Source of the DNA: Oscillospiraceae bacterium
GTDB taxonomy: Bacteria > Bacillota > Clostridia > Oscillospirales > Acutalibacteraceae
Length of the DNA stretch: 39,814 nt
Direction of reading: 5' to 3'
NCBI GenBank assembly: GCA_902786285.1
Contig: CADABX010000012.1
Location: 31,308-71,121 of the forward strand
This document shows, one piece after another, positions 18,600 to 39,814 of this stretch; the first letter of the stretch is position 1, and each line of letters starts with the position of its first letter. Position numbers and translations under genes: made by a program. A model generated the notes under the pieces. It did not search any database. It was not told the origin of the DNA and worked only from the letters and a program-made list of their open reading frames with translations.

Positions 18600-18785
18600 G
18601 TTGGTAACAGCCTAGTAACCGGTTTGGTAACTGTTTGGTAACCACGGAAAAGCCCACCGTTGGGGCAATTGTTCGTAATTAGTTACCAAGTTACCAATAT
18701 TCCAAGTAAAAAGTCAGAAATATAGAAATAGAGAGAAAACAGGAAAAGTTGGAAAACGTTGGTTTCCGGTTTCCGGTAACTCTCT
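18600..18785 (+). repeat. Iteron-hairpin element A (11-bp GGTAAC repeats)
   Basis: Four GGTAAC-type units spaced 11, 12 and 11 bp apart (18600-18644; best units TTTGGTAACTG and TTTGGTAACCA) are followed by the hairpin AAAGCCC...GGGGC (18649-18666). Two inverted units, GTTACCAA at 18682-18689 and 18690-18697, come next. Then come CCAAGTAAAAAGTC (18702-18715), the A-rich core ending CAGGAAAAGTTGGAAAAC (18740-18757) and a tail with GGTTTCC repeats. Elements B (34439) and C (39657) share the same order and core but have different 11-bp words. Confidence 0.75.
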
Positions 18786-18822
18786 GAGATAAATATATAT
18801 CCGGCGTGACCGGCTAACGAAT

Positions 18823-18841
18823 CGCCGATCCCTGATCGGCG
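18823..18841. repeat. 8-bp stem, 3-nt loop hairpin
   Basis: CGCCGATC-CCT-GATCGGCG is a perfect 8-bp stem with a 3-nt loop, with no T-tract. The geometry matches the short hairpins of the two other repeat regions. Confidence 0.7.
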
Positions 18842-18922
18842 CTGCTCAAACTGACGACTGACGACTGTTGACTTACAATGATCGCAGATCAGCAAGAAAT
18901 GATTTTGAAAGAAGGTGCCGCT

Positions 18923-19786
18923 ATGTCTATGAAAATCGCCGTCCGGGTCAATTTGACCCGTGCGCACGCGTTCGACGTGACTGCCAAGGTGATCGAAGAA
19001 CTCCACCGCCTCGGTGCGACGGTGCTGATGGAAAAAGAGATGCAGCCTGTGTTCGGCGCCTTTCCCGTCCGCTTTTTGCCGGGCGACACGGTGTGGGCAC
19101 AGTGTGATCTGTTTATCGCGGTCGGCGGCGACGGCACGTTTATCCACACGGCGCATGTCGCGTCCGGATATGACAAGGAGATCCTCGGCATCAACGCCGG
19201 CAACCTCGGCTTTTTGGCCGGATTGGAAAAAACGGAGCTGCCGCTTTTAAGCCATCTGATCGACGGCAGCTACACGATCGACAAACGCATGATGCTGTGC
19301 GTGGAGCATTACCAAAACGACACGCTGCGGGAAAAGTTCTATTGCCTCAACGACGCCGTGTTTGCGCGCGGCGTGTCGCTGCGCATGTGCGACATCACCG
19401 TTTTTTGCGACGGGCAAAAGGTCAACGACTATTTTGCCGACGGCCTGATCTTTGCAACGCCCACCGGCTCGACGGCCTATTCGCTGTCCGCCGGCGGCCC
19501 TGTGGTGGATCCCGCGATCGAAACGCTTTTGCTCACACCGATCTGCACCCATTCGCTGTTTGCGCGCTCGATGATGTTCCGGCCGGAAAAAACGCTGACG
19601 GTGGAGATCCGCAACCCGGAGCTGTGTCTGCCGCTGCTGTCGTGCGACGGCGAAGAGAGCGTCCATATCTCAAAGGGCAGCACCTTTTTGATCCGGCGTG
19701 CCAGCCGCAATTGCAAGATCATCCGGATCAAAGCCGAGAGCTTTACCGATATACTATCCAGAAAAATGGTGGAACGCCGCGTGTGA
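18923..19786 (+). CDS. nadK: NAD kinase
   Basis: A 287-aa ATP-NAD kinase. It has the GGDGTFIHTAH active-site loop, GINAGNLGFLA, LNDAVFARG and the TPTGSTAYSLSAGGPVV block, all diagnostic. It phosphorylates NAD to NADP. The start at 18923 is chosen over the in-frame ATG at 18878 because AGAAGG lies 7 nt upstream and the extra 15 residues (MIADQQEM...) are unlike the family and abut the inverted repeat at 18851-18869. It heads nadK-argR-recN. It probably has its own promoter in the repeat-rich gap, but I could not find a convincing one. Confidence 0.94.
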   Translation: MSMKIAVRVNLTRAHAFDVTAKVIEELHRLGATVLMEKEMQPVFGAFPVRFLPGDTVWAQCDLFIAVGGDGTFIHTAHVASGYDKEILGINAGNLGFLAGLEKTELPLLSHLIDGSYTIDKRMMLCVEHYQNDTLREKFYCLNDAVFARGVSLRMCDITVFCDGQKVNDYFADGLIFATPTGSTAYSLSAGGPVVDPAIETLLLTPICTHSLFARSMMFRPEKTLTVEIRNPELCLPLLSCDGEESVHISKGSTFLIRRASRNCKIIRIKAESFTDILSRKMVERRV

Positions 19787-19807
19787 CGGCAGGGGAAGGA
19801 GAACAGT

Positions 19808-20272
19808 ATGAAGAAGAACAGCAGACAGGAAGCGATCCTTCAGCTTATCGAACAGGAGAATATCGGCACGCAGGACGAGCTGATGCAAAAACTCGGCGCG
19901 CTGGGCTATTCCGTGACCCAGGCGACCGTGTCGCGCGATATCAAAGCGCTCAAATTAGTCAAATCTCCCGTGGCGGACGGTCAGTACCGCTACGCCGCGG
20001 TGCGCCGCGAGATGCAGGACGTCTCCGGCAAATATTATTCCATTCTGACCCAGTCGATCCTGCACGCGGATTATGCCGGCAACATGGTCGCCATCAAGTG
20101 CTATTCCGGTATGGCAAACGCCGCGTGCGCCGCGGTGGATCACATGGATTCCGACAAGATCCTCGGCACGCTGGCCGGCGACGACACGATCTTTGTGCTT
20201 TGCCGCGACAACCAGGGTGCGCAGGATGTGAGCCGGCTGATGCAAAGCTTTGCCGAACACGGCAGCAACTAA
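19808..20272 (+). CDS. argR: Arginine repressor ArgR/AhrC
   Basis: A 154-aa protein, full length. An N-terminal winged helix (about 1-70) carries the recognition segment QATVSRDIKALKLVK. The C-terminal oligomerisation and arginine-binding domain contains AACAAVDHMDSDKILGTLAGDDTI, whose GTLAGDDTI stretch holds the arginine-contacting Asp residues. It controls arginine biosynthesis and catabolism operons as an arginine-bound hexamer. It lies 21 bp after nadK and 34 bp before recN, the standard Firmicutes order. No arginine genes are in this window. Confidence 0.95.
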   Translation: MKKNSRQEAILQLIEQENIGTQDELMQKLGALGYSVTQATVSRDIKALKLVKSPVADGQYRYAAVRREMQDVSGKYYSILTQSILHADYAGNMVAIKCYSGMANAACAAVDHMDSDKILGTLAGDDTIFVLCRDNQGAQDVSRLMQSFAEHGSN

Positions 20273-20306
20273 ACGAACCACACACCGAACAAAGGAGGCG
20301 AAGCGG

Positions 20307-21962
20307 ATGCTGCGCGAGCTGACAATTGAAAACGTGGCCGTCATCGAACGCGCGTCCCTGCGCTTTGACGAAGGCTTCAACGTGCTGACCGGCGAAACCG
20401 GCGCCGGCAAATCGATCGTGATCGACGCGATCAATGCCGTTCTGGGCGAACGTACCGGCCGCGACGTGGTCCGCTCCGGAGAAGCAACCGCAAAGGTCAC
20501 CGCCTATTTTGACGACCTTTCCCCGGCGGCAAAAGCCGTTTTGGAAAGCTTCGATCTCGACCCGGACGACGAGCTGCTGATTGCGCGGACAATCTCCGCC
20601 GACGGCAAAAGCAGCTGCAAAATCGGCGGCAAAACCGTGACGGCGTCCATGCTGCGTCAGCTCGGCCATGAGCTTGTAACGATCTGCGGCCAGCACGACA
20701 GCCAGCATCTTTTGCAAAAAGAAAAACACCTCGATTACATAGATCTGCTCGCCCAGAGCGGCGAACTGAAAGCGCAGTACCAAGCGCAGTACCACGCGCT
20801 GCGGGATGTGAAAAAACAGCTTCACCGGCTTCGGAAAGCCGACGCCGACAAGGGCGCAAGGCTCGATTATCTTTCGTTCCAGATCAGGGAGCTCGAGGAC
20901 GCGCATATCACAATCGGCGAAACCGACGCGCTGCAGCAGCAGAAAAAACGGCTGCAAAACAAAGAAAAACGGCTGCAGTCGCTGCAGGCCGTGTGCGCCG
21001 CCATCGACGGCGACGAAAACGGCGGACTGCTGCAAAACCTCTATACGCTCTCGAGCGCGCTGGCACAGCTTTCTGACGGCGACGACAGCTTTCGCGCGTT
21101 TGAAGACACGGTCGCAAACGTGCGCTATGACCTGGAGGACTGCGCCGCGGCCGCCCGGCGGACGCTGGACGCGGAAGAAGCCGACGACACCGACATCGAC
21201 ACAATCGAACAGCGGCTCGATCAGCTTTACCGCCTGGGGCAAAAATACGGTCACAGCGAAGAGGCAATGCTCGCGGCGCTGCAAAAAGCCAAAGAAGAAT
21301 ATGACAATATTGCCTTTTCCGAACAGAAAATCGCCGAACTCGAACAGGCGGAGGACGCCATGAGCGACGAGCTGTTACGCTTGGGCGACCGTTTGACCGA
21401 CTGCCGCAAAGCGGCTGCCCGCGACTTTGAACAAAAGGTGACACGGGAACTGACCTTCCTTGACATGCCGGCGGCACAGTTCAAGGTGGAATTCCGCGAA
21501 CAGAACGCGACCGAAAACGGGATGGACGACGTGGAGTTTTGCTTTTGCGCCAACCCCGGACAAGCCTTGAAGGGCATCGGCAAAATCGCGTCGGGCGGCG
21601 AACTGTCGCGTATCATGCTCGCTATCCGCTGTGTGCTTTCGGAGCACGACGGCGAAACGATGATCTTTGACGAGATTGACACCGGCGTCAGCGGCCGCGC
21701 CGCCAGCCGGATCGCCGACCGCTTGCGCAAGGTTGCAAGCGGCAGACAGGTGCTTTGCGTCACCCATCTTGCCCAGATCGCGGCGGCGGCAAACAGCCAT
21801 CTGCTGGTGGAAAAATCGCTCGACCCCGGCGCGACCTATACCCGGGTGACGCCGCTGGACGACGCCGGCCGCGAAACGGAGATCGCCCGGCTGATCGGCG
21901 GCGATCTGATCACAGACGCCACGCGTGCTTCCGCGCGGGAGCTGCTGGCGTATTACGGATGA
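20307..21962 (+). CDS. recN: DNA repair protein RecN
   Basis: A 551-aa SMC-like ATPase. Walker A is GETGAGKS near residue 30. A Q-loop region, [11 protein letters not shown], and two coiled-coil arms (about 155-235 and 300-360) with an acidic hinge follow. The C-terminal ABC signature is [14 protein letters not shown] and Walker B is [14 protein letters not shown]. RecN gathers double-strand-break ends and stimulates RecA-dependent repair. The start at 20307 has AAAGGAGG upstream; the frame is open further up but lacks a ribosome-binding site. The length is normal. It is the last gene of the nadK-argR-recN group. Confidence 0.96.
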
Positions 21963-22017
21963 ATCCATAAAAAAACAAATTGCAATAGAACCACAAAAAA
22001 AGAAAGGATGTATTCCC

Positions 22018-23241
22018 ATGGAAATATATGAAGAACTGGTTGCGCGCGGCCTGATCGCGCAGGTGACGGACGAACAGGAGATCCGCGATCTTGTCAACAA
22101 CGGCAAGGCGGTGTTTTACATCGGCTTTGACCCCACGGCGGATTCGCTGCATGTGGGTCACTTTATGGCGCTGTGCCTGATGAAGCGTCTGCAGATGGCG
22201 GGCAACAAGCCCATCGCCCTGATCGGAGGAGGAACCGCCATGATCGGCGACCCCTCGGGCCGCACCGATATGCGCCAGATGATGACCAAGGAGACCATTC
22301 AGCACAACTGCGACTGCTTTAAAAAGCAGATGAGCCGCTTTATCGATTTTTCAGACGGCAAAGCGCTGATGGTCAACAACGCCGACTGGCTGCTCGATCT
22401 CAACTATGTGGAGCTGCTGCGCGAAGTGGGCGCTTGCTTTTCAGTCAACAACATGCTGCGTGCGGAATGCTATAAGCAGCGGATGGAAAAGGGCTTGTCG
22501 TTCCTCGAATTCAACTACATGATCATGCAAAGCTACGACTTTTATTCCCTGTTCCAGAAATACGGCTGCAACATGCAGTTCGGCGGCGACGACCAGTGGA
22601 GCAACATGCTCGGCGGCACGGAGCTGATCCGCAAAAAGCTGGGCAAGGACGCCTATGCCATGACGATTACGCTGCTGCTCAACTCCGAGGGCAAAAAGAT
22701 GGGCAAAACCCAGAAGGGCGCCGTGTGGCTCGACCCGGAAAAGACCAGCCCGTATGAATTCTATCAGTACTGGCGCAATGTGGACGACGCCGACGTGCTC
22801 AAGTGTATCCGCATGCTGACCTTCCTGCCGCTCGACGAGATCGAAAAAATGGAAAGCTGGCAGGGGAGCGAGCTCAACCGCGCCAAAGAGATCCTCGCCT
22901 TCGAGCTGACAAAGCTCGTCCACGGCGAGGCGGAAGCCGAAAAAGCCCAGGCCACCGCCAAGGCGCTGTTCACGGGCGCCGCGGACGCGGACAATATGCC
23001 GGCCACAACGCTCGCAAAGGCCGACTTTGACGCCGGCGTGCAGCTGCTGGACGTGATGGTGCAGGCAGGTCTTGTCAAATCCAAGGGCGAAGGCCGCCGG
23101 CTGGTGCAGCAGGGCGGTGTGTCGCTCAACGACGAAAAGGTGACCGACCCGATGTTGGTTTTGTCCGCCGCCGATTTTGAAAAAGGCTATGCCGTGATCA
23201 AAAAAGGCAAAAAAGTCTTCCATAAGATCACGGTGGCATAA
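22018..23241 (+). CDS. tyrS: Tyrosine-tRNA ligase
   Basis: A 407-aa class I synthetase of the bacterial TyrRS type. The HIGH-equivalent is HVGHF in [12 protein letters not shown]; the tyrosine-binding stretch includes [14 protein letters not shown] and GGDDQWSNM. The KMSKS-equivalent is KKMGKTQKG, and a C-terminal S4 domain (about 340-407) contains [15 protein letters not shown]. It charges tRNA-Tyr. The start at 22018 follows AGAAAGGA. Only 55 bp separate it from recN, too short for a T-box leader, so control by uncharged tRNA is not apparent. Confidence 0.97.
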
Positions 23242-23242
23242 G

Positions 23243-23992: not shown

Positions 23993-26900
23993 ATGAGCGA
24001 AAAGACGATCTATACGGTTGCAACAGCCCATCTGGACACGATCTGGAACTGGAGCTTTGAAACGACCGTGCAGGACTATCTGCCAAAAACGCTGGAAAAA
24101 AACTTTGAGCTGTTCCGCAAATACCCGGACTACCGCTTCAATTTTGAGGGCGCCTACCGCTATCAGTTGATGGAGGAATACTATCCCGAACAGTTCCGGA
24201 CACTCAAACAGGCGGTGGCCGACGGCCGCTGGAACGTGACCGGATCCGCGTGGGAAAACGGCGATTGCAACATCCCGTCGCCGGAAGCGCTGTTTCGCAA
24301 TTTCCTGTACGGCAACGGCTATTTTCAAAAGACCTTCGGCAAAACGAGCAAGGACGTCTTTTTGCCCGACTGCTTCGGCTTCGGCTATGCGCTGCCGTCC
24401 ATTGCCGCCCACAGCAATCTGCTGGGCTTCACCACGCAGAAACTCTCTTGGGGCAGCGCCTACGGGATCCCGTTCGACATCGGCAAATGGTACGGCGTCA
24501 ACGGCAAACCGATCTATGCGTGTCTCAATATGGGCAACTATGTCCATGTGTTTTCCAAGATTCGCGGCTACGACTTTGTGCAAAAGAAGCTGAAGGCCAA
24601 CGAGGCGTTCGGTCTTTCCGCGACCGCCGTCTATCACGGCGTGGGCGACCGCGGCGGGGCACCGCTCGAATTATCGGTCAAAACGCTGCAAAAAGAGATG
24701 GACGAAAACAAAGTCAGTCCGGTCGAAGTCCGCTCTGCGGCGTCGGATGAGATCTACCGCGACTTGGAGCAGGACAAAAAGACCGCAGCCAAGCTGCCGC
24801 AGTGGCACAACGAGCTGCTGATGACCAACCACGGCGCCGGCTGCTACACCTCGCGCGCCATCTCAAAACGCTGGAACGCGAGAAACGAAGTGCTCGCCAA
24901 TATGGCGGAGCGTGCCGCCGTCGGCGCAAGACTGCTCGGCGCGCTGCCGTATCCGCAAAACACGCTCGACACCGCGTGGAAACGCGTGATCGCGCACCAG
25001 TTCCACGACGATCTGACCGGCACGGCGCTGCAGGCGGAATATCGCCGTTCGTGGAACGACTATGTGCAGTCGATGAACCAGTTTTCCGACGTGTTTGCGT
25101 CCTCGGCCGAAGCCGTGCTCAAAAATATGGACACCTCGTTTTGCAAAGGCACGCCCGTTGCCGTTTGGAACAGTCAGGACTTTGCCGTCCAGCGCGTGGT
25201 CACGTTCCCGTGTGACAAAGCCTGCATCCGTGTGTTCGACGATCAGGGCGTGGAGGTGCCGTCGCAAAGCTTTATAAACGAAACCGGCGAACAAACCGCC
25301 GCCATTTATGCCAAAGTGCCGCCCTGCGGCTGCCGCGTGTTCGACGTGCGCGCGGGCAAAACGCCCTACAGCGACGACGAACCGGTCATGTTCGCCGCCG
25401 ACGACAAGCTCGAAAACGAGCGCGTGATCGTCCGGCTCGACAAAAACGGCGACGTGTGCTCGATCTATGACAAAACCGTGGGCCAGCAGCTGTTGCGCCG
25501 GCCGGTCACGTTCGACCTGCTGCGCGACGACGGCGTGCGCAGCTATCCCGCGTGGGAAGTGACCTACGACGATGTGATGGCGCCTGTGATGGCCCGTCCG
25601 CAAAAGGTCAGTGCCGCGCTGGTATACAGCGGCCCGTGCATCGCCGCGCTGCGGCTCAAAAAGCGCTTCGGCCAATCGACCTTTGATACCATTGTCACCG
25701 TCATGCGCGGTACCAAGGTCGTCTCGTTCCAGAACGAGATCGACTGGCACGAACACAGCACCATGTGCAAGGTGTGTTTCCCGCTCGGCGTGGAAAACGA
25801 CACGGCGCGCTACGACCTCGGCCTCGGCGCGATCGACCGCGCCACCAACACGCGTCAGCTCTTTGAGGTGCCGGCGCAGCAGTGGGCCGCCATCCGCGAC
25901 CGTTCGGGCGCCTTCGGCGTCGGCATTCTTTCCGACAGCAAGCGTGGCTGGGACAAGCCCGACGCGTTCACCTTGCGTCTGACGGCGCTGCATACCCCGA
26001 AATATTCCTTCCGTCCCGACAGTATGCAAAACCAGCTCGACCAGGGTCTCAACCGGTTCGGCTTTGCCATCTGCTCGTTTGCGGAGGATAACTATACCTC
26101 GCTCGACAAACGCGCCCGCCAGTTCTGCACGCCGCTTGCCGCGTTCTCTCTCGGACGCCATAAGGGCGCGCTCGGCACACGGTTCAGTCTGCTTTCCTGC
26201 TCCAATGACAGCGTGGTTGTCCGCGCGGTAAAACAGGCGCAGGACTCCGATGAGATCGTCGTGCGCGTCAATGAGATTGCCGGCAAACAGCAGGAACGCG
26301 TCACGCTGCGGTTCTTCCAGCCGGTTGTTTCCGTGCGCGAAATCTATGCGAGCGAAGAGACGATCGGCATGTACCCTGTGGAGGACGGCGCGATCACGTT
26401 TGATCTCGACCCGTTCGACGTGCGCTCGTTTGCACTTTCCTTCCCGGAAAAGCCGGTACACCCGGTCAAGAGCAAGCCGGCTGTTTTGCCGCTCAACACC
26501 TTTGTGCTCACAACGAACGACAAGCGATCCGACGCGTTTTTGCCGATGCTCGATTTTTCGCTTCCCGGGGAGCTGATGCCCGGCGAGGTGCTTTCGGGCG
26601 GCTTGCGGTTTGAACTGAACAACGCCTGCAATACACCCAACGCGCTGCTTTGCAACGGCCAGACGCTGGACGTACCGGCGGGCGCCAAAGCGTTTTGCTT
26701 CATCGGCTGTGCGCTGGGCGCAGACAAAACCTATACCTTCAAAGCCGACGAGACGGAAATCGCCTGCAAGGTGCAAAACCTGCTGGAGCCGATCGGCAAA
26801 TGGGATCTGACCGATCTTGAAGAATCCGCCGCGATCAAGCGCGATCCGCTGGCGTTTTCGCTGACCCATACCCACGGCAAAGACGGCGACAATATCGGGC

Positions 26901-27142
26901 AGCAGACCTTCTTCTTCCGCTGCGAAGTGCCGCTCGGCAAAGCAAAAACGCTCACGATGCCGGTGCACTCCGATCTGCTGTTGCTTTCGGCTGTATTCAA
27001 AACGGAAGCGCAGCGCGCCGAGCTTTTGACAACGCTGTATGACAAAGCACAGCCGCGCGAGATCGACAAGGAGGCCTACAGCGGCGAAGCCGTTGCCTAC
27101 CGCGCCGAAAAGCTGCGTTCGCTCTGGCGCCGGTTCTTCTGA
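23993..27142 (+). CDS. GH38 family alpha-mannosidase (first copy)
   Basis: A 1049-aa glycoside hydrolase of family 38. The N-terminal catalytic (beta/alpha)7 barrel has the metal ligands of HLDTIWNW (His13, Asp15). The nucleophile is Asp126 in FLPDCFGFG. ELLMTNHGAG lies near 274-283 and HQFHDDLTGTA at 335-345. The C-terminal beta-sandwich domains (about 450-1049) match the full-length family. These zinc enzymes remove alpha-linked mannose by a retaining mechanism. No signal peptide is present, so it should act on imported glycans or on host N-glycan/oligomannose fragments in the cytoplasm. It is a paralogue of the gene at 27705-30872, from which it is separated by a small membrane protein. 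The linkage specificity cannot be read from sequence. Confidence 0.92.
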   Translation: MSEKTIYTVATAHLDTIWNWSFETTVQDYLPKTLEKNFELFRKYPDYRFNFEGAYRYQLMEEYYPEQFRTLKQAVADGRWNVTGSAWENGDCNIPSPEALFRNFLYGNGYFQKTFGKTSKDVFLPDCFGFGYALPSIAAHSNLLGFTTQKLSWGSAYGIPFDIGKWYGVNGKPIYACLNMGNYVHVFSKIRGYDFVQKKLKANEAFGLSATAVYHGVGDRGGAPLELSVKTLQKEMDENKVSPVEVRSAASDEIYRDLEQDKKTAAKLPQWHNELLMTNHGAGCYTSRAISKRWNARNEVLANMAERAAVGARLLGALPYPQNTLDTAWKRVIAHQFHDDLTGTALQAEYRRSWNDYVQSMNQFSDVFASSAEAVLKNMDTSFCKGTPVAVWNSQDFAVQRVVTFPCDKACIRVFDDQGVEVPSQSFINETGEQTAAIYAKVPPCGCRVFDVRAGKTPYSDDEPVMFAADDKLENERVIVRLDKNGDVCSIYDKTVGQQLLRRPVTFDLLRDDGVRSYPAWEVTYDDVMAPVMARPQKVSAALVYSGPCIAALRLKKRFGQSTFDTIVTVMRGTKVVSFQNEIDWHEHSTMCKVCFPLGVENDTARYDLGLGAIDRATNTRQLFEVPAQQWAAIRDRSGAFGVGILSDSKRGWDKPDAFTLRLTALHTPKYSFRPDSMQNQLDQGLNRFGFAICSFAEDNYTSLDKRARQFCTPLAAFSLGRHKGALGTRFSLLSCSNDSVVVRAVKQAQDSDEIVVRVNEIAGKQQERVTLRFFQPVVSVREIYASEETIGMYPVEDGAITFDLDPFDVRSFALSFPEKPVHPVKSKPAVLPLNTFVLTTNDKRSDAFLPMLDFSLPGELMPGEVLSGGLRFELNNACNTPNALLCNGQTLDVPAGAKAFCFIGCALGADKTYTFKADETEIACKVQNLLEPIGKWDLTDLEESAAIKRDPLAFSLTHTHGKDGDNIGQQTFFFRCEVPLGKAKTLTMPVHSDLLLLSAVFKTEAQRAELLTTLYDKAQPREIDKEAYSGEAVAYRAEKLRSLWRRFF

Positions 27143-27172
27143 TGAAAGTTTCACTTTTTGCGGCCGTGCCGC

Positions 27173-27201
27173 TTGTCAAACAACCGGCCGTGTGCTACAA
27201 T
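27173..27201 (+). promoter_or_regulatory. Sigma-A promoter before the small membrane protein and second GH38 gene
   Basis: -35 TTGTCA (27173-27178), a 17-nt spacer and -10 TACAAT (27196-27201), with TGC just before the -10. It gives the second mannosidase separate expression from the tyrS/DUF554/GH38 group. Confidence 0.8.
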
Positions 27202-27233
27202 AAATCCATAAACACGTGCAGGGAGGCTATTTT

Positions 27234-27683
27234 ATGAAACCCGCAAACAAAAACCAAACGCTTTTTGTACTGCTCAGCTGCGGCTTCGGCGTTGCTGCGG
27301 CGGTGCTGCACTGGCTGATTCCGACCAGATTTCTGTTGGGCAACGTGATCGAATATATCTGTGCCGCCGTGGCGGCAGTGCTGTCGCTTGCGGCGCTGGG
27401 GCTGTTCGTCTTCGGCTTTGTGGTGCCGCTTTTGCAACAGAAAAAGGGCCTTTGCGGCGGCAGCGTATTCTATATGCCGGCGCTTTGCTGGTCGGTGCTC
27501 GGGCTGCTGTTCGGCGCCGCGGCAACAACGGCAAAGCTGATCCGTGCGCTGCTATACGGCTTTGTGCCCGTCCAGACGGAAGGGATCCAATGGAGCTTTT
27601 CCGTGCTCACACTTGTCAATGTTCCCGTGCTGGTGTGCTTTGCCGTGCTGTTTTTGCGCGAGCAAAAGGCACAGCGCGATTAA
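27234..27683 (+). CDS. Small four-helix membrane protein of unknown function
   Basis: A 149-aa protein with about four hydrophobic segments (roughly 8-28, 36-66, 78-98 and 120-143), short charged ends and no recognisable motif. I do not recognise the family. The start at 27234 follows GGGAGG with a 7-nt gap; an in-frame ATG at 27216 lacks a ribosome-binding site. It has its own promoter (27173-27201) and precedes the second GH38 gene by 21 bp. It may work with that enzyme, for instance in membrane placement or glycan uptake, but this is only from context. Confidence 0.8.
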   Translation: MKPANKNQTLFVLLSCGFGVAAAVLHWLIPTRFLLGNVIEYICAAVAAVLSLAALGLFVFGFVVPLLQQKKGLCGGSVFYMPALCWSVLGLLFGAAATTAKLIRALLYGFVPVQTEGIQWSFSVLTLVNVPVLVCFAVLFLREQKAQRD

Positions 27684-27704
27684 GCGAAAAAGGGGTTCAA
27701 GGTT

Positions 27705-30700
27705 ATGGAAAAAGAAAAACGCATATATACCATCGCGACGGCGCATCTCGACACGGTATGGAACTGGGATTTCGAGCATGTTTTGAACGTCTGTCTGCCC
27801 AACACGCTGCACGACAACTTCCGTCTGTTCAGCCAGTACCCCGACTACCGCTTCAATTTCGAGGGCGCGTACCGGTATGAGCTGTTCCGCGAATACTATC
27901 CCGAGGAGTATGAAACGCTGAAAGGCTATATCGCCGACGGCCGCTGGAACGTGACCGGCTCGGCGTGGGAAAACGGCGACGTCAATGTGCCGTCTCCGGA
28001 GCAGATGTTCCGCAACATTTTGTACGGCAACCGCTATTTCCGGCAGGAATTCGGCAAACAGAGCAACGACATCTATCTGCCCGACTGCTTCGGCTTCGGC
28101 TGGGCGCTGCCGAGCATTGCCGCGAATGCCGGCCTCAAGGGCTTTTCCACCCAGAAGCTGAGCTGGGGCAGCGCCTACGGGATCCCGTTTGATATCGGCC
28201 GCTGGGAAGGCCCCGACGGCAAAAAGATCTTTGTCTCGCTCGACCCGAAAAGCTATTGCACCACCTTCCGGAAGATCCGCGACAGCAAAGAGCTGCTGCC
28301 GAAGCTGAAAAAGAACGAAAAGAAATACGACCTGCCGTGGACGATGGGCTACCACGGCGTGGGCGACGTTGGCGGCGCGCCGAAGGAGGAGTCGGTGAAA
28401 ACGCTGGAAGCCGAGATGGCGCAAAACAGCGAAAGCGACGTCAAGGTGCTCTCTTCCTCGCCCACGGAATTCTTTGACGACCTTGCCGCGCTGCCGCAGG
28501 AAGAACAGGACAAGCTGCCCGGCTGGAACAGCGAACTGCTGATGACCAACCACGGCGTCGGCTCCTACACCTCGCGTGCGTTTTCCAAACGGATGAACCG
28601 CAAAAACGAGGAGCTCGGCGACATGGCCGAAAAGGCGGGCGTGATCGCGTCGGCTGTGTGCGGCGCAAAATACCCGAAGGCGGCGTTCGACGACGCGTGG
28701 AAAAAGACGATTGCCCACACCTTCCACGACGACATCACCGGTACCAGCGTGGAGCGTGTGTATAAGCGTTCGTGGAATGATCTTGTGATCGCGGCCAACC
28801 GCTTTGCCGGCGCGTTTGAAGGCGCCGGCGCCGAGATCGCCAAAAACATGGACACCTCGTGGACAAAGGGCATCGCCGTGGTCGTTGCAAACTCGCTCGA
28901 GCAGCCGCGCATGGAGCCGGTGGATCTGACAATCCCCGCCAAGGGCTACCGCTGTGTGCGCGTCTATGACAACCAGGGCAAAGAGGTGCCCTCGCAGGTC
29001 AACTACGCCGACGAATCCGTGATCAAGCTGTGCTTTTGCGCCACAGTGGACGCGCTGGGCTACAAGGTCTACGACGTGCTCTATTCCTTTGAGCCCTGCC
29101 GGCTCAACACCGGCGTGCGCTGCGGCGGCAATATCATCGAAAACTACAAGTATATCGTCTCGGTCAATCAAAAGGGCGATATCTGCTCCGTGATCGACAA
29201 AACGCTCGGCGGCCGCGAGCTGCTGGAAAAGCCGATCCGGTTTGAAATCAACAAATACGACGGCAACAAGGCCTACCCCGCGTGGGAGCTGACCAAAGAC
29301 GAAGCCACGGGCTACCCGTGGGAATACGCCGAAAAGGGCGAGGTCGAAGTGGAGGAACAGGGTCCCGTGCGTGTGACGCTGCGGGTGAAGCAAACAGCCG
29401 GCAATTCCACGTTTACCTACCGGGTGTCGCTGTTTGCCGGCGGCCAGTGGGTCAGCGTCCAAAACGAGGTGGAATGGCGCTCGTTCCGCCGCCTTTTGCA
29501 AAACGGCTTCCACTTGAACGCCAAAGCGCCGCAGGCCACGTTTGACCTCGGCCTCGGCGTCATCCGCCGCCGTCCGGCAACGAAAAAGCTCTATGCCGTG
29601 CCGGCGCAAAAATGGGCGGATCTGACCGACCAGCGAAACAATTTCGGCGTCAGCATCTTCTCCGATTCCAAATACGGCTGGGTGTTCAAAGATCAGCATT
29701 CGCTGCTTTTGACCGTGCTGCACACGCCGAAATACTACTACCGCGCCGACTCCGTGCAGGGCATGATGGACATGGGTCTCAACCGCTACGGCTACGCGCT
29801 CTATGCGCACAAAGGCGATTTTACCAACGGCACGCAGTTCTATGCGCGGGCGTTCCACCAGCCGCTGACGGCGTTTGTCACCAGCCGCCACCCGGGTTCG
29901 CTGGAAAGTGCGTTTGGCTTTGCCCAGCTCAACAACCCCGGCGTGATTTTGCGCGCGATGAAAAAGGCCGAAGACTCCGACGAAGTGATCGTGCGGTTTA
30001 ACGAAGGCGCCGGCATGCACGCGGGCAACACCTACTTTACCCTCGGCACCGGCATCCTTGCGGCGCGCGAAGTGAACACCACCGAAGACCCGGTCGGCCC
30101 GGCGCAGGTCGTGGACGGCAATCTGGTGTTTGACCTCGAGCCGTTCGAAGTCAAGACCTTTGCGCTGACGCTGGCCCCGTGCAAACGCGCCGGCATCGGC
30201 AGCCAGCAGCCGCTCAGACTGCCGTATAACCTCGACATGATCACGTTCAACAAAAACCGCGGCGACACCTATATCCCGACGCTGAACGTCTCGGTGCCGG
30301 GCGAGTTGTTCCCGCAATCGATCGACTGCGCCGGCGTCCATTTTGAAACCGGCATGGCGTGGGCGGACAACAACGCGCTGATTGCCGCCGGTCAGACGCT
30401 CGACGTCAGCGGCACGCGGCTTTGCTTCATCGGCGCGAGCCTGTACGGCGACAAAACCTACACCTTCCGCGTGGATGACAAGCCGGTGGAGCTCAAGGTG
30501 CAATCGGTCAAGGAGCGCGTCGGCGGCTGGGATCTTTACAATCTTGCCGAAACGGCGTTCATCAAGGGCGACCGCGTGGCGTGGGTCTGCACCCATACGC
30601 ACGAAAACGACAAGGACAACCGCGGCGACGAGCTGTACTTCTTTATGTATGCCCTCGATATCCGCGGCGCGTCGACGGTCACACTGCCCGAAGACAACGG

Positions 30701-30872
30701 TCTGATGCTGCTTGCGGCAACCGTTGTCACCGACGAGCGCGACGCGGCGCTGAACCGGCCGCTGCTGCCCGCGATGGAAAAGCGTCCCTTCGATTTCACG
30801 ATGAGCCCGAAGGAAAAACGCCGCCACAACAAGCAGATGAAAAAGACGCGCAAGCCGCTCAACCAGTCATAA
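27705..30872 (+). CDS. GH38 family alpha-mannosidase (second copy)
   Basis: A 1055-aa paralogue of the protein at 23993-27142, colinear over its whole length. Zinc and catalytic residues are kept: HLDTVWNW (His14, Asp16), nucleophile Asp127 in YLPDCFGFG, ELLMTNHGVG, and HTFHDDITGTS. It differs by a highly basic C-terminal tail (about 1036-1055, KEKRRHNKQMKKTRK) absent from the first copy. No signal peptide is present, so cytoplasmic action on mannose-containing oligosaccharides is expected. It ends just before the terminator at 30880-30906. The paralogues have diverged enough to suggest different linkages or aglycones rather than a recent duplication. Confidence 0.92.
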   Translation: MEKEKRIYTIATAHLDTVWNWDFEHVLNVCLPNTLHDNFRLFSQYPDYRFNFEGAYRYELFREYYPEEYETLKGYIADGRWNVTGSAWENGDVNVPSPEQMFRNILYGNRYFRQEFGKQSNDIYLPDCFGFGWALPSIAANAGLKGFSTQKLSWGSAYGIPFDIGRWEGPDGKKIFVSLDPKSYCTTFRKIRDSKELLPKLKKNEKKYDLPWTMGYHGVGDVGGAPKEESVKTLEAEMAQNSESDVKVLSSSPTEFFDDLAALPQEEQDKLPGWNSELLMTNHGVGSYTSRAFSKRMNRKNEELGDMAEKAGVIASAVCGAKYPKAAFDDAWKKTIAHTFHDDITGTSVERVYKRSWNDLVIAANRFAGAFEGAGAEIAKNMDTSWTKGIAVVVANSLEQPRMEPVDLTIPAKGYRCVRVYDNQGKEVPSQVNYADESVIKLCFCATVDALGYKVYDVLYSFEPCRLNTGVRCGGNIIENYKYIVSVNQKGDICSVIDKTLGGRELLEKPIRFEINKYDGNKAYPAWELTKDEATGYPWEYAEKGEVEVEEQGPVRVTLRVKQTAGNSTFTYRVSLFAGGQWVSVQNEVEWRSFRRLLQNGFHLNAKAPQATFDLGLGVIRRRPATKKLYAVPAQKWADLTDQRNNFGVSIFSDSKYGWVFKDQHSLLLTVLHTPKYYYRADSVQGMMDMGLNRYGYALYAHKGDFTNGTQFYARAFHQPLTAFVTSRHPGSLESAFGFAQLNNPGVILRAMKKAEDSDEVIVRFNEGAGMHAGNTYFTLGTGILAAREVNTTEDPVGPAQVVDGNLVFDLEPFEVKTFALTLAPCKRAGIGSQQPLRLPYNLDMITFNKNRGDTYIPTLNVSVPGELFPQSIDCAGVHFETGMAWADNNALIAAGQTLDVSGTRLCFIGASLYGDKTYTFRVDDKPVELKVQSVKERVGGWDLYNLAETAFIKGDRVAWVCTHTHENDKDNRGDELYFFMYALDIRGASTVTLPEDNGLMLLAATVVTDERDAALNRPLLPAMEKRPFDFTMSPKEKRRHNKQMKKTRKPLNQS

Positions 30873-34356: not shown

Positions 34357-34438
34357 CTCCGAGGGCCGAGGGAATGGATAATTGAAAATTGATTGGTCGG
34401 CAGTGGTTCTTTTTGTGGGGAAAGAGTGAAAGAGAAAT

Positions 34439-34615
34439 GTCATTCACTCGTCATTCACTTGTCATTCACTCGTCATTCACTCCCAAAAATGCCCGAATGG
34501 TGGGCTTTGTCGGGGCTTTCGTGAATGAGATTTCTGTTTTTAGCATAAAAAAAGTATATAAAAGAAGGAGCAGGAAAAAGTTGGGAAATGTCATTCACTT
34601 ATGTTTCGTTCACTC
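34439..34615 (+). repeat. Iteron-hairpin element B (11-bp GTCATTCACTC repeats)
   Basis: Four contiguous 11-bp units of GTCATTCACT(C/T) at 34439-34482 are followed by a GC hairpin region (TGCCC...GGGC, then GGGGCTTTC). An inverted unit, GTGAATGAG, is at 34521-34529. The A-rich core ends CAGGAAAAAGTTGGGAAAT (34571-34589), and one more direct unit (34590-34600) plus a partial one (34608-34615) follow. The order and core match elements A and C; the repeat word is specific to this locus. Confidence 0.85.
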
Positions 34616-35744: not shown

Positions 35745-35768
35745 CGTAGATAGAAAGGACTTGATACT

Positions 35769-35972: not shown

Positions 35973-35979
35973 GAGCGCG

Positions 35980-36006
35980 GCCGCCTTTTTAAGGCGGCAG
36001 TTTTCT
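35980..36006 (+). terminator. Rho-independent terminator after the DUF1858 gene
   Basis: GCCGCCTT / AAGGCGGC, an 8-bp stem with a TTT loop, followed by AGTTTTCTT. Confidence 0.88.
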
Positions 36007-36022
36007 TCCAAAGGAGAATCCT

Positions 36023-36709
36023 ATGTCCAACCAACTTGACGTGCGGCTGCGGCTGGTTGCGTCGTTTGTGCGGCCGGGCAGCGTGGTGGCCGATATCGGC
36101 ACCGACCACGCCTATCTGCCGGTGCAGCTGGTGTCCGCCGGCATTTGTCCCGGGGCGTATGCCTGCGATCTCCGGGAAGGCCCGCTGCAAAACGCAACGC
36201 AGACCGTGCGGGCCGCCGGGCTTTCCGATAAAATACAGACCGTTTTGTCCGACGGACTGGACGCGCTGCCGCCGGGCTGCGCCGACGACGTGATCTTTGC
36301 CGGCATGGGCGGCATCTTGATTGCCGAACTGCTCTCGCGTGCCGCGTGGCTGGAAAACCCGGACGTGCGCGTGATCGCCCAACCGATGAGCCACGCCGAG
36401 GACGTGCGGCTGTGGCTGTTTCAAAACGGCTTTACCATTGACGACGAAGCCGCCGTCTTTGACCGGCACCACGGCTATGTCGTGCTCGCGGCGCATTACA
36501 CGGGCGAAAACACCGCCGTTACACCCGCCATGCCCTACGGCGGCACATTGTTCGGGAAGTCCGACCCGGCGGCAAAGCGGCTGCTTTCGCTGCAGCTGCA
36601 GCGGCTCAAAAAACGCCGCGACGCGCTCCAAAACGCGCAAAGCGACCCGGACGAAACGGCGCGGCTTTGCGCTGTGATCGATGATTTTGAACGGAGGATG
36701 CAAGTATGA
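36023..36709 (+). CDS. trmK: tRNA (adenine(22)-N1)-methyltransferase TrmK
   Basis: A 228-aa class I SAM methyltransferase of the TrmK/YqfN family. Motif I is VADIGTDHAYLPVQL, followed by ACDLREGPLQNA, the catalytic-face block VIFAGMGGILIAELL and VIAQPMSHAEDVRLWLF. The C-terminal coiled coil (about 185-228) is typical. It methylates A22 of bacterial tRNAs. The gene overlaps the Nif3-like gene by four bases, the same pairing as yqfN-yqfO in Bacillus. AAAGGAG precedes the ATG. Confidence 0.94.
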   Translation: MSNQLDVRLRLVASFVRPGSVVADIGTDHAYLPVQLVSAGICPGAYACDLREGPLQNATQTVRAAGLSDKIQTVLSDGLDALPPGCADDVIFAGMGGILIAELLSRAAWLENPDVRVIAQPMSHAEDVRLWLFQNGFTIDDEAAVFDRHHGYVVLAAHYTGENTAVTPAMPYGGTLFGKSDPAAKRLLSLQLQRLKKRRDALQNAQSDPDETARLCAVIDDFERRMQV

Positions 36710-37476
36710 CGACCCTCAAGGCGCTGTCTGATTTTCTCAATACAGTCGCGCCCTACGATACCCAGTGCCCCTGGGACAATTCCGGCCTTCTGGTCGGCGA
36801 CCCGGAAGGTCAGGTGCAATGCGCGGCGTTCGCGCTGGATCTGACAAACGACACCTTAAAGCAGGCGATCGCCTGCGGTGCGGATGTGCTTGTGACGCAC
36901 CATCCGGTGATCTTCAACCCGAAGCGCAATCTGCTTTTCGGCGACCCGGTCTATGCGCTTTGCCGCGCCGGACTTGCCGCAATCAGCGTCCACACGCCGT
37001 GGGACTGTGCGCAGGGCGGCGTCAACGATGTGCTGTGTGACGCGCTCCGGTTGACAAATGTGCAGGGTATCGCGTCGGACGAAACGCCTGTGCCGATGGC
37101 GCGTATCGGCGACATCGAACCGTGCACGCCGCAGGATTTTGCAAAACGCTGCGCCCGCGCCCTCGGTACGACCGTGCAGCTTGTGGAAGGGCGCGAAACG
37201 GTTCGCCGCGTCGCCGTTTGCGGCGGTGCCGGGATGGACTTCTTTTTCGACGCGCTCTCGCTGGGTGCCGACGCGTATCTCACCGGCGAAGCGAAGCACC
37301 ACGAGCTTCTACAGGCGGCGGACTGCGGCAAAACGCTGGTCGTTGGCGGCCATTTTGAAACGGAAGTGCTGTCGATGGCGGCGCTGCAAACCCGCGTGCA
37401 AACGGCATTTCCGGCGCTCAGAACGGTGCTGCTTCGGCAGCGGACGCCGGTTTGTTTTATCAGTGAAGAAGGATGA
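36706..37476 (+). CDS. Nif3-like dinuclear metal-centre hexameric protein
   Basis: A 256-aa NIF3/DUF34 family protein of the short form, lacking the inserted PII-like domain of B. subtilis YqfO. Metal ligands are visible in VTHHPVIF, SVHTPWD and GGHFETEV, with NSGLLVGDP near the N-terminus. The family forms a toroidal hexamer with two metal ions per subunit; the biochemical role is unsettled (proposed hydrolase or metal chaperone). It is coupled to trmK by an ATGA overlap and followed by rqcH after 3 bp. Confidence 0.92.
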   Translation: MTTLKALSDFLNTVAPYDTQCPWDNSGLLVGDPEGQVQCAAFALDLTNDTLKQAIACGADVLVTHHPVIFNPKRNLLFGDPVYALCRAGLAAISVHTPWDCAQGGVNDVLCDALRLTNVQGIASDETPVPMARIGDIEPCTPQDFAKRCARALGTTVQLVEGRETVRRVAVCGGAGMDFFFDALSLGADAYLTGEAKHHELLQAADCGKTLVVGGHFETEVLSMAALQTRVQTAFPALRTVLLRQRTPVCFISEEG

Positions 37477-37479
37477 TCC

Positions 37480-39228
37480 ATGGCACTTGACGGATACTTT
37501 TTATCAAAGCTCAAAGACGAGCTGCTGATTCGCGCCGTCGGCACAAAGATCGACAAAGTCCAGCAGCCGTCCAAGGACGAAATACTCTTGACCTTGCGGC
37601 ACCGCACCGGCAGCGAAAAGCTGCTGATCTGCGTGCGGGCGGACGCGCCGCGGGTGCATTTCACCGCCCAAAGCGCCCAAAATCCGACCCAGCCGCCGAT
37701 GTTTTGTATGCTGCTGCGCAAGTACCTCACAGGCGCAAAGATCACAGACGTGCGGCAAATCGGGCTCGACCGGCTGTTGTTTTTCGATCTGGATGCCACA
37801 ACCGAAATCGGCGACAAAACGACGCTGCAGCTTTGCGTCGAAACGATGGGCACGTATTCGAATCTGATCCTGATCGCCGCGGACGGCAAGATCATCGACG
37901 CCGCCAAACGGATCGACTTTGCCGCGTCGAGCGTGCGGCAGATTTTGCCCGGGCTGCCCTATGAGCTGCCGCAGCAGCAGGGAAAGCTGAATCTGGAAAC
38001 CGAGACGGCCGACGCGGTGGCACAGGCGATTTTTGCAAAGGGCAACAAGCTGCTGAGTTCGGCGGCGCTGCAGACCGTGCAGGGCATTTCGCCGCTGATT
38101 GCGCGCGAAATCGCGTACCGCTGTACCGGGTCGGACGAAACCGTTGCGGCGCTGACCGACGCCCAAAGGGGCAATCTGCTGGCGGTTTTGCAGCAGATGA
38201 AGCAGGCGCTGCACCGCGATCCGGCGTGCTATATGGTGCTCGACGACACCGGCGCGCCCAAGGAGATCGCGTCGATGCATATCTATCAGTACGACGGTGT
38301 GTTCAAAGGCAAAGATTATGCCGGCGCGTCGGCGCTGCTCGACGACTTCTATCGCGAGCGCGACCGCGCCACACGGCTCAGCCAGCGCGGCCACGAGCTG
38401 TTTAAAACGCTCCATACCCTCACGGAGCGCACATCGCGCCGTTTGACCGTGCAAAAGGAAGAGCTGCGAAAGAGCGCCGACCGCGACAAATATAAGCTTT
38501 GGGGCGAACTGATCACGGCGAATCTGCATACGTTGCAAAAAGGCAGCAGCACCTATACCGTGGAAAACTACTATGATAACATGGCGCCGCTGACGATCCG
38601 TGTGGATCCGGCGCTCGACCCGCTGCAAAACGCCAACCGCTTTTACAAGGAATACCGCAAGGCGAAGACCGCCGAAGAGGTGCTCACCGAACGGATTGCC
38701 CGGGGCGAAACGGAGCTGCAATATTTCGACACCGTGCTCGACGCGCTCAGCCGCGCCGACACCGAACAGGAGCTGTTTGCGATCCGGCTGGAACTGAGCG
38801 AGGGCGGCTATCTGCGCAAAAAGAGCGGCAAAAAGCAGCCGCGGCAAAAACCCTTGCCGCCCATCGAATGCCGGTCGGGCGACGGCTACCGGATCCTTGT
38901 CGGCCGCAACAACGCCCAAAACGATCTTCTTTCGCTCAAAACCGCAAACAAGCGCGACTGGTGGTTCCACACCCAGCAGTCGCCGGGTTCCCATGTGATA
39001 CTCGAAACCGTGGACGGCGAAGCGAGCGATCAGGCGATGGAGGAGGCGGCGATGCTGGCGGCGTATTACAGCAAAGCGAAGGACTCTTCGCTGGTGCCGG
39101 TGGACTACACCCGCGTGAAACAGCTCAAAAAGCCCGTCGGCGCAAAGCCGGGCAAGGTGATCTACCACGAATATTACACGATGATCGTGACGCCCGACAA
39201 GGAGAAGTGCGAAGCGATGCGGGTGTAG
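37480..39228 (+). CDS. rqcH: Ribosome-associated quality control protein RqcH (NFACT family)
   Basis: A 582-aa NFACT protein. The NFACT-N domain (about 1-175) includes the Asp97-Arg98 pair needed for tRNA-Ala use in B. subtilis RqcH. Helix-hairpin-helix segments near 190-225 and a long coiled coil (about 270-430) follow. The C-terminal NFACT-R (DUF814) domain contains GRNNAQNDLL and DWWFHTQQSPGSHVI. RqcH binds stalled 50S-peptidyl-tRNA and adds alanine tails that mark nascent chains for degradation. The older annotation is fibronectin-binding protein. No cell-wall anchor or signal peptide is present. Confidence 0.95.
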   Translation: MALDGYFLSKLKDELLIRAVGTKIDKVQQPSKDEILLTLRHRTGSEKLLICVRADAPRVHFTAQSAQNPTQPPMFCMLLRKYLTGAKITDVRQIGLDRLLFFDLDATTEIGDKTTLQLCVETMGTYSNLILIAADGKIIDAAKRIDFAASSVRQILPGLPYELPQQQGKLNLETETADAVAQAIFAKGNKLLSSAALQTVQGISPLIAREIAYRCTGSDETVAALTDAQRGNLLAVLQQMKQALHRDPACYMVLDDTGAPKEIASMHIYQYDGVFKGKDYAGASALLDDFYRERDRATRLSQRGHELFKTLHTLTERTSRRLTVQKEELRKSADRDKYKLWGELITANLHTLQKGSSTYTVENYYDNMAPLTIRVDPALDPLQNANRFYKEYRKAKTAEEVLTERIARGETELQYFDTVLDALSRADTEQELFAIRLELSEGGYLRKKSGKKQPRQKPLPPIECRSGDGYRILVGRNNAQNDLLSLKTANKRDWWFHTQQSPGSHVILETVDGEASDQAMEEAAMLAAYYSKAKDSSLVPVDYTRVKQLKKPVGAKPGKVIYHEYYTMIVTPDKEKCEAMRV

Positions 39229-39291
39229 CGCAGCTGAAAGCGGCGCAGTCGACAGTCGACAATCAACAGCGGTCAGTAGTCAGCAGGAACA

Positions 39292-39329
39292 CAGCGCCCG
39301 TAGCGTCGATCAGTGATCGACTGGGCGCG
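39292..39329 (+). repeat. REP-like 38-bp unit
   Basis: CAGCGCCCGTAG, C, then GTCGATC-AGT-GATCGAC (39305-39321), then TGGGCGCG. It matches the units at 35055 and 35109 apart from the base after GTAG and one loop base. Confidence 0.85.
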
Positions 39330-39353
39330 GAAGGTGGGGGTGTGCTGTGTCGT

Positions 39354-39403
39354 TATGAAACTGAACGGTTATAAATCAGTCGCCGACGCGGCGACCGCTA
39401 CAG
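39354..39403 (-). repeat. REP-like hairpin with conserved 3' tail
   Basis: On minus: CTGTAG, CG, then GTCGCCG-CGT-CGGCGAC (39379-39395), then TGATTTATAACCGTTCAG and TTTCATA. It is the partner of 34631-34686: the flanks differ at two positions, while three consecutive stem pairs differ with pairing kept. Confidence 0.8.
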
Positions 39404-39414
39404 ATTATCCCTTG

Positions 39415-39436
39415 CCCTCTCCGAAGGCGGAGAGGG
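39415..39436. repeat. CCCTCTCC/AAGG hairpin module
   Basis: CCCTCTCCG-AAGG-CGGAGAGGG, a 9-bp stem preceded by CCTTG. Compared with 34762-34781 the loop is identical and the closing pair is exchanged. Confidence 0.8.
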
Positions 39437-39440
39437 TGGC

Positions 39441-39459
39441 ATCGTGCCGCAGGCGCGAT
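39441..39459. repeat. 8-bp stem, 3-nt loop hairpin
   Basis: ATCGTGCC-GCA-GGCGCGAT, with one T-G wobble. It is followed by GACGGGTGAGGTTTGAACC, which also follows a different GCA-loop hairpin near 34850-34885. Confidence 0.7.
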
Positions 39460-39521
39460 GACGGGTGAGGTTTGAACCCCACCGCAGCGCACCGTTGGCG
39501 GCAAAGCACAACAACGCCTTC

Positions 39522-39559
39522 CGCGCCCGGTCGCGCGGAGCGCAACGCTACGGGCGCTG
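39522..39559 (-). repeat. REP-like 38-bp unit with exchanged stem
   Basis: On minus: CAGCGCCCGTAGC, then GTTGCGC-TCC-GCGCGAC, then CGGGCGCG. The flanks match the other 38-bp units, but the inner stem is different and still pairs over 7 bp (one G-T wobble). It is in tandem with the unit at 39576, 54 bp away. Confidence 0.8.
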
Positions 39560-39575
39560 GGTTTTGTTTAACGTC

Positions 39576-39613
39576 CGCGCCCAGTCGATCGCTGATCGAC
39601 GCTACGGGCGCTG
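39576..39613 (-). repeat. REP-like 38-bp unit
   Basis: On minus: CAGCGCCCGTAGC, then GTCGATC-AGC-GATCGAC (39584-39600), then TGGGCGCG. Apart from the base after GTAG it is identical to the units at 35055 and 35109. Confidence 0.85.
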
Positions 39614-39656
39614 GGTTTTTGCTTTCAAGTGTAAACAAAACACAAGTAACCAGCGT

Positions 39657-39814
39657 ATCCCAACATTTCCCGTTTTTTCCTGTTTTCTGTTTTTCAGACT
39701 TTTTACTTGGAAAACAAGAAAAGTCAGTTGCAAAAGTGCCGAAAAGCCCCTAACGGTGGGCTTTGTTGGTGCTGCCAGCTTGCAGCTAACTTGCAGCTAG
39801 CTTGCAGCTGACGT
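39657..39814 (-). repeat. Iteron-hairpin element C (11-bp AGCTTGCAGCT repeats)
   Basis: In plus coordinates: three contiguous 11-bp units of A(G/A)CTTGCAGCT at 39777-39809, a hairpin around AAAGCCC...GGGCTTT (39743-39764), an inverted near-unit AGTTGCAA at 39726-39733, GACTTTTTACTTGG at 39697-39710, and the core (TTTCCCGTTTTTTCCTGTTTTC, of which TTCCTGTTTTC is best conserved) at about 39666-39688. Read on minus this has the same order as elements A and B. The repeat array may continue beyond the window. Confidence 0.8.

Follow-up and report, generated by a model that had tools for sequence, protein, structure and literature searches.

Three repeat elements in the window

The stretch of DNA analysed here (the window, 39,814 nucleotides of contig CADABX010000012.1 in assembly GCA_902786285.1, from an Oscillospiraceae bacterium) harbors three short elements, A, B and C, which we consider candidate orphan replication origins. 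The genome to which the window belongs (G000) is a metagenome-assembled genome (MAG) of 2.39 Mb in 67 contigs, with 90% completeness. Re-reading of the window bore out the positions given for the three elements in a preliminary description made from the letters alone, as well as the layout they were said to have in common, in which a left array of direct words at about 11 bp is followed by a GC hairpin, the word in inverted form and an A-rich core; further direct copies follow the core in each element.

Element A (18600..18785, forward strand, word GGTAAC) lies between what we take to be tlyA and the NAD-kinase gene, based on the flanking open reading frames (ORFs). Its left array comprises four direct GTAAC units, putative iterons, spaced by about 11 bp (18603..18642, forward; GGTAAC/GTAAC copies at 18603-18608, 18615-18619, 18626-18631 and 18637-18642), followed by a hairpin of the form GCCC..GGGGC (18652..18666, forward), an inverted pair of GTTACC (18682..18695, reverse; copies at 18682-18687 and 18690-18695), an A-rich core that may be the DNA-unwinding region (18702..18757, forward; it starts with CCAAGTAAAAAGTC at 18702-18715) and right-hand direct copies GGTTTCC, GGTTTCC and GGTAAC (18763..18780, forward; the last at 18775-18780). 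In element B (34439..34615, forward, word GTCATTCAC), four exact copies of GTCATTCAC at 11-bp spacing (34439..34480, forward; starts at 34439, 34450, 34461 and 34472) precede the hairpin GCCC GAATGGT GGGC (34491..34505, forward), the inverted copy GTGAATGA (34521..34528, reverse), the A-rich core (34535..34589, forward) and the right-hand direct copies (34590..34613, forward), with GTCATTCAC at 34590 and TCGTTCAC at 34606-34613. Just upstream of B is a stretch ending at a stop codon (34391..34429, forward) that is common to loci L057 and L068 and is probably what remains of the 3' end of a lost rep gene. Element C (39624..39814, reverse, word AGCTGCAAG) is cut within its array by the contig end and comprises three direct copies of CTTGCAGCT at 11-bp spacing (39779..39809, reverse; at 39779, 39790 and 39801), a hairpin (39746..39761, reverse), the inverted copy AGTTGCAAA with 2 mismatches (39726..39734, forward) and an A-rich core (39670..39712, reverse) with CCAAGTAAAAAGTC at 39697-39710. 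The direct copies beyond the core of C (GGTTAC, GTTTACAC) differ from its left word and do not match it.

The best exact 7-mer occurs in 5 copies in A and 6 in B, numbers reached by 0/1000 first-order Markov sequences in each case; for C alone, where the contig ends inside the array, the best 7-mer has 3 copies, which 125/1000 such sequences reach. We accept C as an element because a copy on contig C46 matches it at 96% identity over 219 bp and because of the model searches described below, not on the strength of its own repeat count. As first reported, CCAAGTAAAAAGTC is common to A and C, and it recurs in one third copy. The claim of a conserved core stands for the hairpin and the A-rich region, but not for the string CAGGAAAAAGTTGGGAAAT, which within 3 mismatches was found only in B when the own genome was searched, so that the common core must be looser than this string. 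Several copies are also longer than first described, with more direct copies after the core and a start inside the apparent 3' tail of a lost gene.

Many copies are then followed by GTAG-type palindromes recurring, by eye, at many sites (CCCGTAGCGTCGATC..GATCGACTGGGCG, GTAGGGGCGACC..GGTCGCCC; e.g. window 39300-39630), which we presume to be REP (repetitive extragenic palindromic) sequences. As candidates for the right end of the elements they are uncertain, a simple scan having given just one such palindrome in the window.

Direct and inverted words change together

With a sequence-only model of the hairpin-to-core part, 10 copies were found in the own genome at E <=3.2e-15, and a broader model added those on C22, C18 and C3, giving at least 13 elements. 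The broader model also yielded 14, 9 and 4 elements in the sister genomes G009, G011 and G015, respectively (at least 27 together, 3 of them gene-linked), and no match at E 1e-4 or better in 30 further genomes of the genus that were searched with it. These counts are lower bounds, with first-look candidates scored in part only; the origin that follows vapE in G019, for example, scored just E 0.006 with the model, and the element G009:C2 is counted by its stronger match, from an earlier search. Screening of 32 weak model matches with assigned loci (E up to 0.4 in the own-genome model search and up to 0.01 in the second search) led us to read L023, L027 and L046 as real elements and the rest as chance, except for L030 (E 4e-7), which we take to be a leader of the kind described in the last section and not an element. 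By eye, the layout, from the array through hairpin, inverted copy and A-rich core to the right-hand direct copies, recurs in 40 elements, some with losses, and their words include GGTAAC, GTCATTCAC, CTATTCAC, CTATCCAC, TATTAAC, CTACAACTC and AGCTGCAAG as well as GTGCAC, CTGCAC, ACTACAC, TTGTCAC, TTGCAAC, GTTGAC and GGTTTAC.

The co-variation of direct and inverted units that had been proposed from three loci is borne out across the copies recovered by searching the genome and its relatives with the core model. For the first 16 elements, the left word scored 8.38 against its own inverted copy vs. 5.32 against those of the others, with 0/20,000 permutations as good (L060, L062, L064, L065, L066, L067 and L072 were dropped from this swap test as near-duplicate, ortholog, gene-linked or wrong-type). 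In 17 later elements, found by the core model and not by the word, the scores were 9.53 vs. 6.56 (0/20,000), and for all 33 elements, a set in which one element (L661) is gene-linked and at least two pairs (L027/L659 and L073/L660) are orthologs, they were 9.03 vs. 6.14 (0/20,000). The own pairing was best or tied-best in only 15/33 elements because words are common to related elements; in the subset with distinct words (n=11), it was best or tied in 9/11, with scores of 9.18 vs. 6.17 (0/20,000). When the region downstream of the vapE gene was split blindly at 99 VapE-linked loci (see below), the own halves scored 10.32 vs. 7.45 for swapped ones (0/5,000), as compared with 7.38 vs. 7.03 (6/5,000) for a control split inside the gene. 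These swap tests support a recognition word in a fixed frame, at a spacing of about one helical turn.

That the inverted copy tracks the direct word is also what one would expect of an RNA-pairing device, as had been suggested earlier, in which array and inverted word act within a transcript. Two copies folded no better than shuffled sequences, however (z -0.94 and +0.44), the window from 18000 to 39814 had no Rfam match at E up to 1, and iterons next to rep genes account for the same layout on DNA. We thus regard a role in RNA as highly improbable.

We also considered a single-residue recognition code, in which residue X of the C-terminal YGxQRxW motif in VapE would correspond to base 3 of the iteron, counting only loci that had at least 6 copies and a word score >1.5. 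In the first set, K/R at X went with G at base 3 in 8/9 vs. 4/39 loci (p 1e-5), but a second set gave 2/3 vs. 7/54 (p 0.06), and another word register showed no association (1/2 vs. 4/37 and 1/2 vs. 8/54), so this code was not confirmed.

Related units lie directly downstream of VapE and P4-type genes

Some copies of the element begin within an open frame. On G009:C80, a VapE-like gene (PF05272, E 1.2e-61; PHROGs DNA helicase, E 1.3e-89) that spans two contigs with overlapping ends is followed by the element, which begins directly at the stop codon; on G009:C184, the layout, with another word, directly follows a 506-codon stop-to-stop frame matching the P4-family primase (TIGR01613, E 1.4e-50). 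The VapE protein matched PDB entry 7pds, whose molecule is named 'Similar to D. nodosus vapE', at E 6.2e-85, and a Foldseek search with its model (predicted local distance difference test score 82) returned the same entry, 'PriRep1 with dsDNA', with E 1.9e-29 for the best chain and template modelling scores of 0.63-0.68 over six chains. The gene-bearing units thus encode, based on PF05272 and 7pds, a Rep of the family that includes VapE and the Rep of Staphylococcus aureus pathogenicity islands (SaPIs). The preliminary description had asked for a protein family tracking the elements; a VapE or P4-type primase gene does lie directly 5' of 3/40 elements in the four genomes, but most copies have no such gene.

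This arrangement extends beyond the sister genomes. A VapE search of 98 relatives gave 14 places in 13 of them, and 7/34 genomes of the genus have a VapE match. By eye, words lie directly 3' of the gene in L074-L081, L083, L084 and L086, of which L075-L078 and L080 represent five additional species of the genus with a standalone vapE, L081 is from the same genus in another context, and L079, L083, L084 and L086 belong to the same family. Alignment searches of viral and genome contigs supplied additional VapE loci (best 80 of at least 600 matches per scan); a single VapE protein as query gave no match in the viral contigs, and alignments were needed. Among the first 99 non-redundant loci, drawn from 169 whose downstream DNA was long enough, 63/99 had an 8-mer in at least 6 copies within 300 bp after the stop codon, as compared with 6/89 upstream of the gene, 2/99 inside it and 33/396 shuffled sequences. 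In 96 further, previously unused loci, scanned with the family word (approximately TGGNAACA) as seed, at least 7 copies were found in 62/96 vs. 5/288 shuffles. Over all 195 non-redundant loci, 135/195 carry at least 6 copies of one word downstream, with the few loci of broken frame counted as misses. Since these 135 loci are each followed by their own word, more than 100 natural initiator-iteron pairs are available for deducing how this family of helicases recognises DNA.

The standalone vapE genes of G008, G011, G017, G019 and G020 lie, by eye, among ordinary chromosomal genes, and no integrase, excisionase, repressor or other phage or satellite gene was seen near these five by eye, with no family search made; the unit therefore seems to consist of one gene plus origin, and the orphan copies are gene-less. 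The words that go with the VapE proteins of G009 and G011 are CTATTCAC and GGTAAC, respectively.

Elements A, B and C as probable orphan origins

In published accounts, the C-terminal domain of the SaPI Rep recognises iterons immediately following the rep gene (PMC7581432), and the origins of phage-inducible chromosomal islands (PICIs) lie immediately 3' of rep, with an AT-rich region flanked by two sets of iterons (PMC6092414). Based on this layout and on the match of VapE to PriRep1, the hairpin elements are best read as origins, and we put at roughly 0.85 the probability that A, B and C are orphaned origins of replication of this Rep type (SaPI/PICI), with their words as iterons. The anatomy hence belongs to a described family, contrary to the preliminary description, which knew of none. 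We infer that the orphans derive from rep-origin units and now mostly lie in genomes without their cognate Rep.

By analogy with the published work on SaPIs and on the staphylococcal cassette chromosome (SCC), we postulate that a Rep helicase (a VapE-like superfamily 3 (SF3) protein, or a P4/D5 primase-helicase for one subgroup) would bind the words through its C-terminal domain, contacting the direct repeats on both sides (the left array and the right pair) as well as the inverted pair, and would then open the intervening A-rich core and load itself, whereupon replication would start. Because every copy in one origin must fit one Rep, the same word would occur in direct and inverted units and differ between replicons, with hairpin and core persisting as the word changes from one replicon to the next. 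The elements may have entered the chromosome together with rep genes, as one-gene vapE-origin units exist in sister genomes, and would now be mostly alone, some truncated at the 5' end, and swapping parts among themselves.

Several observations weigh against this proposal. There is no rep gene beside A, B or C among the ORFs of the window or in the VapE search, so that the position directly 3' of a Rep gene was seen at G009:C80 and L075-L081, and statistically for the VapE loci, but not for these three elements; the own genome, at 90% completeness, gave no VapE match at all. Arrays are weak at L082 and L085 and absent at L087, 60/195 VapE loci lack a strong array by the copy-count method, and 76/585 shuffled sequences reach the 6-copy mark. 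The rule that the inverted copy follows the local word, upheld over the 33 elements taken together, fails in L058, L059 and L063, where the inverted copy departs from the left word, and the right arm of C breaks it as well; the inverted copy is weak in L660 and L665b. Finally, A is conserved above its flanks, as detailed in the next section, which speaks against a neutral relic for that copy.

The closest parallels share parts of this arrangement. As in the Rep origins of SaPIs and PICIs (PMC6092414 and PMC7581432), the gene-linked units have a Rep helicase of the VapE/PriRep1 family, an origin immediately 3' of rep and two iteron sets flanking an AT-rich stretch; unlike them, the elements of the window have no adjacent rep, lie alone in intergenes and occur with many words per chromosome, and the five standalone vapE genes lack visible satellite genes. 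The Cch2 origin of SCCmec, which parallels the P4-type unit of G009, likewise works with an SF3/D5-type helicase that uses its C-terminal domain to bind direct repeats just 3' of the helicase gene (PMC7581432), but the iteron is a 5-nt AAGTG in three copies, located between cch2 and the ccr recombinase gene of a resistance cassette. The origin of the PICI-like elements (PLEs) of Vibrio is likewise a satellite origin with iterons (PMC7145576), differing in that its initiator is a RepA_N protein and not of the VapE family. In Bartonella, a phage-type origin is kept in the chromosome along with a phage-derived particle module, a gene transfer agent (GTA; PMC2697382); here, as many as 14 elements with many words occur per genome, and any particles are hypothetical. 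The origin type itself is therefore known, and what is new is a dispersed, mostly gene-less and many-worded set of origins in one chromosome, of which we found no description in the literature searched (VapE with iteron, origin or satellite, and miniature phage origins, in one open library). On this reading, phage-type origins can persist and build up in a chromosome after their replicons are gone, with words that may tell which initiators once passed through.

Conservation and probable insertion and exchange of the dispersed elements

The site of A was matched in 33/34 genomes, and 20 loci were compared. The tlyA-nadK intergene measures <=71 bp in 16/20 of these, which we took as an empty site, and 340-355 bp with an element in the other four: A itself in G000 and G009, and elements in the opposite orientation, with the words GGTTTAC and GTTGAC, in G011 and G015. 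We read this as recurrent insertion at one site. The empty sites also bear on the earlier caveat that one core repeat may have landed by chance in pre-existing 11-bp satellites. Words do stand on both sides of the core, as this would predict, but the inverted copy sits within the conserved unit, and the 16 loci with <=71 bp between the genes hold no satellite, which contradicts such an event at that site; we find it hardly credible.

Degenerate short-period repeats (GTCGACTGACGACTG, ATTCCACATTCCAAATTCC, GAAGTGAAGAGTGAAG), with a motif that varies by site, flank insertions (for example, window 18540-18590 and 18850-18875; flanks of L282).

In a comparison of G000 with G009 that covers seven pairs among those noticed and is not systematic, A differs at 1/186 bases, as opposed to 9.4% and 6.6% in the flanking coding parts, which suggests either constraint or recent exchange. 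Other copies show the opposite signal: repeats are lost or replaced in L058/L065 and L063/L070, and the hairpin and inverted segment of the latter pair are 43% different, pointing toward a neutral relic. Between G000:C2 and G009:C27, the flanks and the word are the same, with a different hairpin and core (43% over the first 60 bases), and between G000:C18 (L658) and G009:C184 (L661), the core is common, the left, inverted and first right copies read CTACAC vs. CTGCAC, and the last right copies are identical. We interpret these patterns as exchange of parts between dispersed copies, the L658/L661 pair being a snapshot of recombination or of concerted change. Given the apparent recurrent insertion, the constraint or exchange at A and the loss or replacement of repeats elsewhere, we favor derived, recombining orphan origins.

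The strongest competing explanation is that these are non-autonomous mobile units, i.e. short origin-bearing elements replicated and moved in trans by the Rep of related elements or phages, much as miniature transposons are; it competes with the relic view of the orphans and not with their reading as origins. Consistent with such units, 3 of the 40 elements in the four related genomes are gene-linked, the tlyA-nadK intergene is occupied in opposite orientations, copies of 94-96% identity lie at different sites (L007/L009, C/C46), and, by eye, left ends are ragged inside the rep tail and right ends alike. By eye, however, neither terminal inverted repeats nor target duplications were noticed (no systematic test was made), and no transposase or integrase was seen in the units. 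We consider mobilisation in trans possible, if on balance doubtful, and retain orphan origins derived from rep-origin units as our reading.

A different role for such origins would be as decoys in anti-phage defence, in which chromosomal origins of phage type titrate the initiator of an invading phage, each word being directed at another phage. Lambda is arrested by ectopic lambda origins, although the decoy was plasmid-borne (PMC4488673), and both the many words in a genome that gave no VapE match and the strong conservation of A would suit a decoy. Yet other copies decay or are replaced, and two word patterns run against viral contigs hit 3 and 1 contigs, respectively, with no VapE-like gene seen beside the arrays in the stretches inspected (by eye, no family search). 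Current phages bearing the same words thus find no support in the viral contig collection scanned, and we rate a decoy function as improbable.

A leader shared by separate phage-like modules

Upstream of three vapE genes, we noticed a leader that consists of a dyad around TTTGTCGCG..CGCGACAAA (in some copies) followed by CCTTATTATGGGAGGACTTTTTT. This second part occurs at 21 places in 10/34 genomes of the genus, and the reversed pattern at 0. Judged by translation, the leader precedes vapE (3 places), genes resembling the terminase small subunit (8), portal-like genes (2), a DnaD-like loader (5) and others (3). For G000:C9, the PHROGs matches include terS, terL, portal and capsid, and for G000:C56 and G011:C20 they confirm the DnaD-like loader; module types elsewhere, including G009 and G019, were judged by eye. 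In the own genome, the leader lies at position 6067 of G000:C9 (L707) and 2810 of G000:C56 (L708), and G009, G011 and G019 each harbor, at separate loci, a single vapE-origin unit with the leader, a single loader and a single head/packaging module. Against Rfam, the leader loci gave tRNAs only (10/21), and a leader fragment from G012 gave one chance-level match only against phages. The genus with these shared-leader modules includes a Ruminococcaceae MAG.

The shared leader on separate modules could be the mark of a split-phage or GTA-like regulon, which opens a testable case in this genus. A possible form is run-off replication, where VapE and the DnaD-like loader would, upon induction, fire the dispersed chromosomal origins in place and a separate head/packaging module would package the amplified host DNA, making up a phage-derived system over three co-regulated loci whose words turn over with the Rep alleles. 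One leader before vapE, loader and terminase/portal/capsid modules, and the presence of one of each module in three genomes, fit this proposal, as does the coupling of a phage-derived origin to a GTA in Bartonella (PMC2697382). Against it, a matching Rep was not found in the same genome for many of the words, the VapE search of G000 gave nothing and the MAG contigs are short, and we judge it unlikely.

The standalone vapE genes of G008 and G020 (L090, L091) have, in place of the leader, an upstream dyad AGAACATTTGTTCGAA. This resembles a LexA box, which would suggest damage-inducible expression of vapE.

Elsewhere in the window, at 23993-30872, adjacent ORFs of 1049 and 1055 codons that start alike (IYTVATAHLDTIWNW / IYTIATAHLDTVWNW) form an apparent tandem duplicate, presumably glycoside-hydrolase-like.

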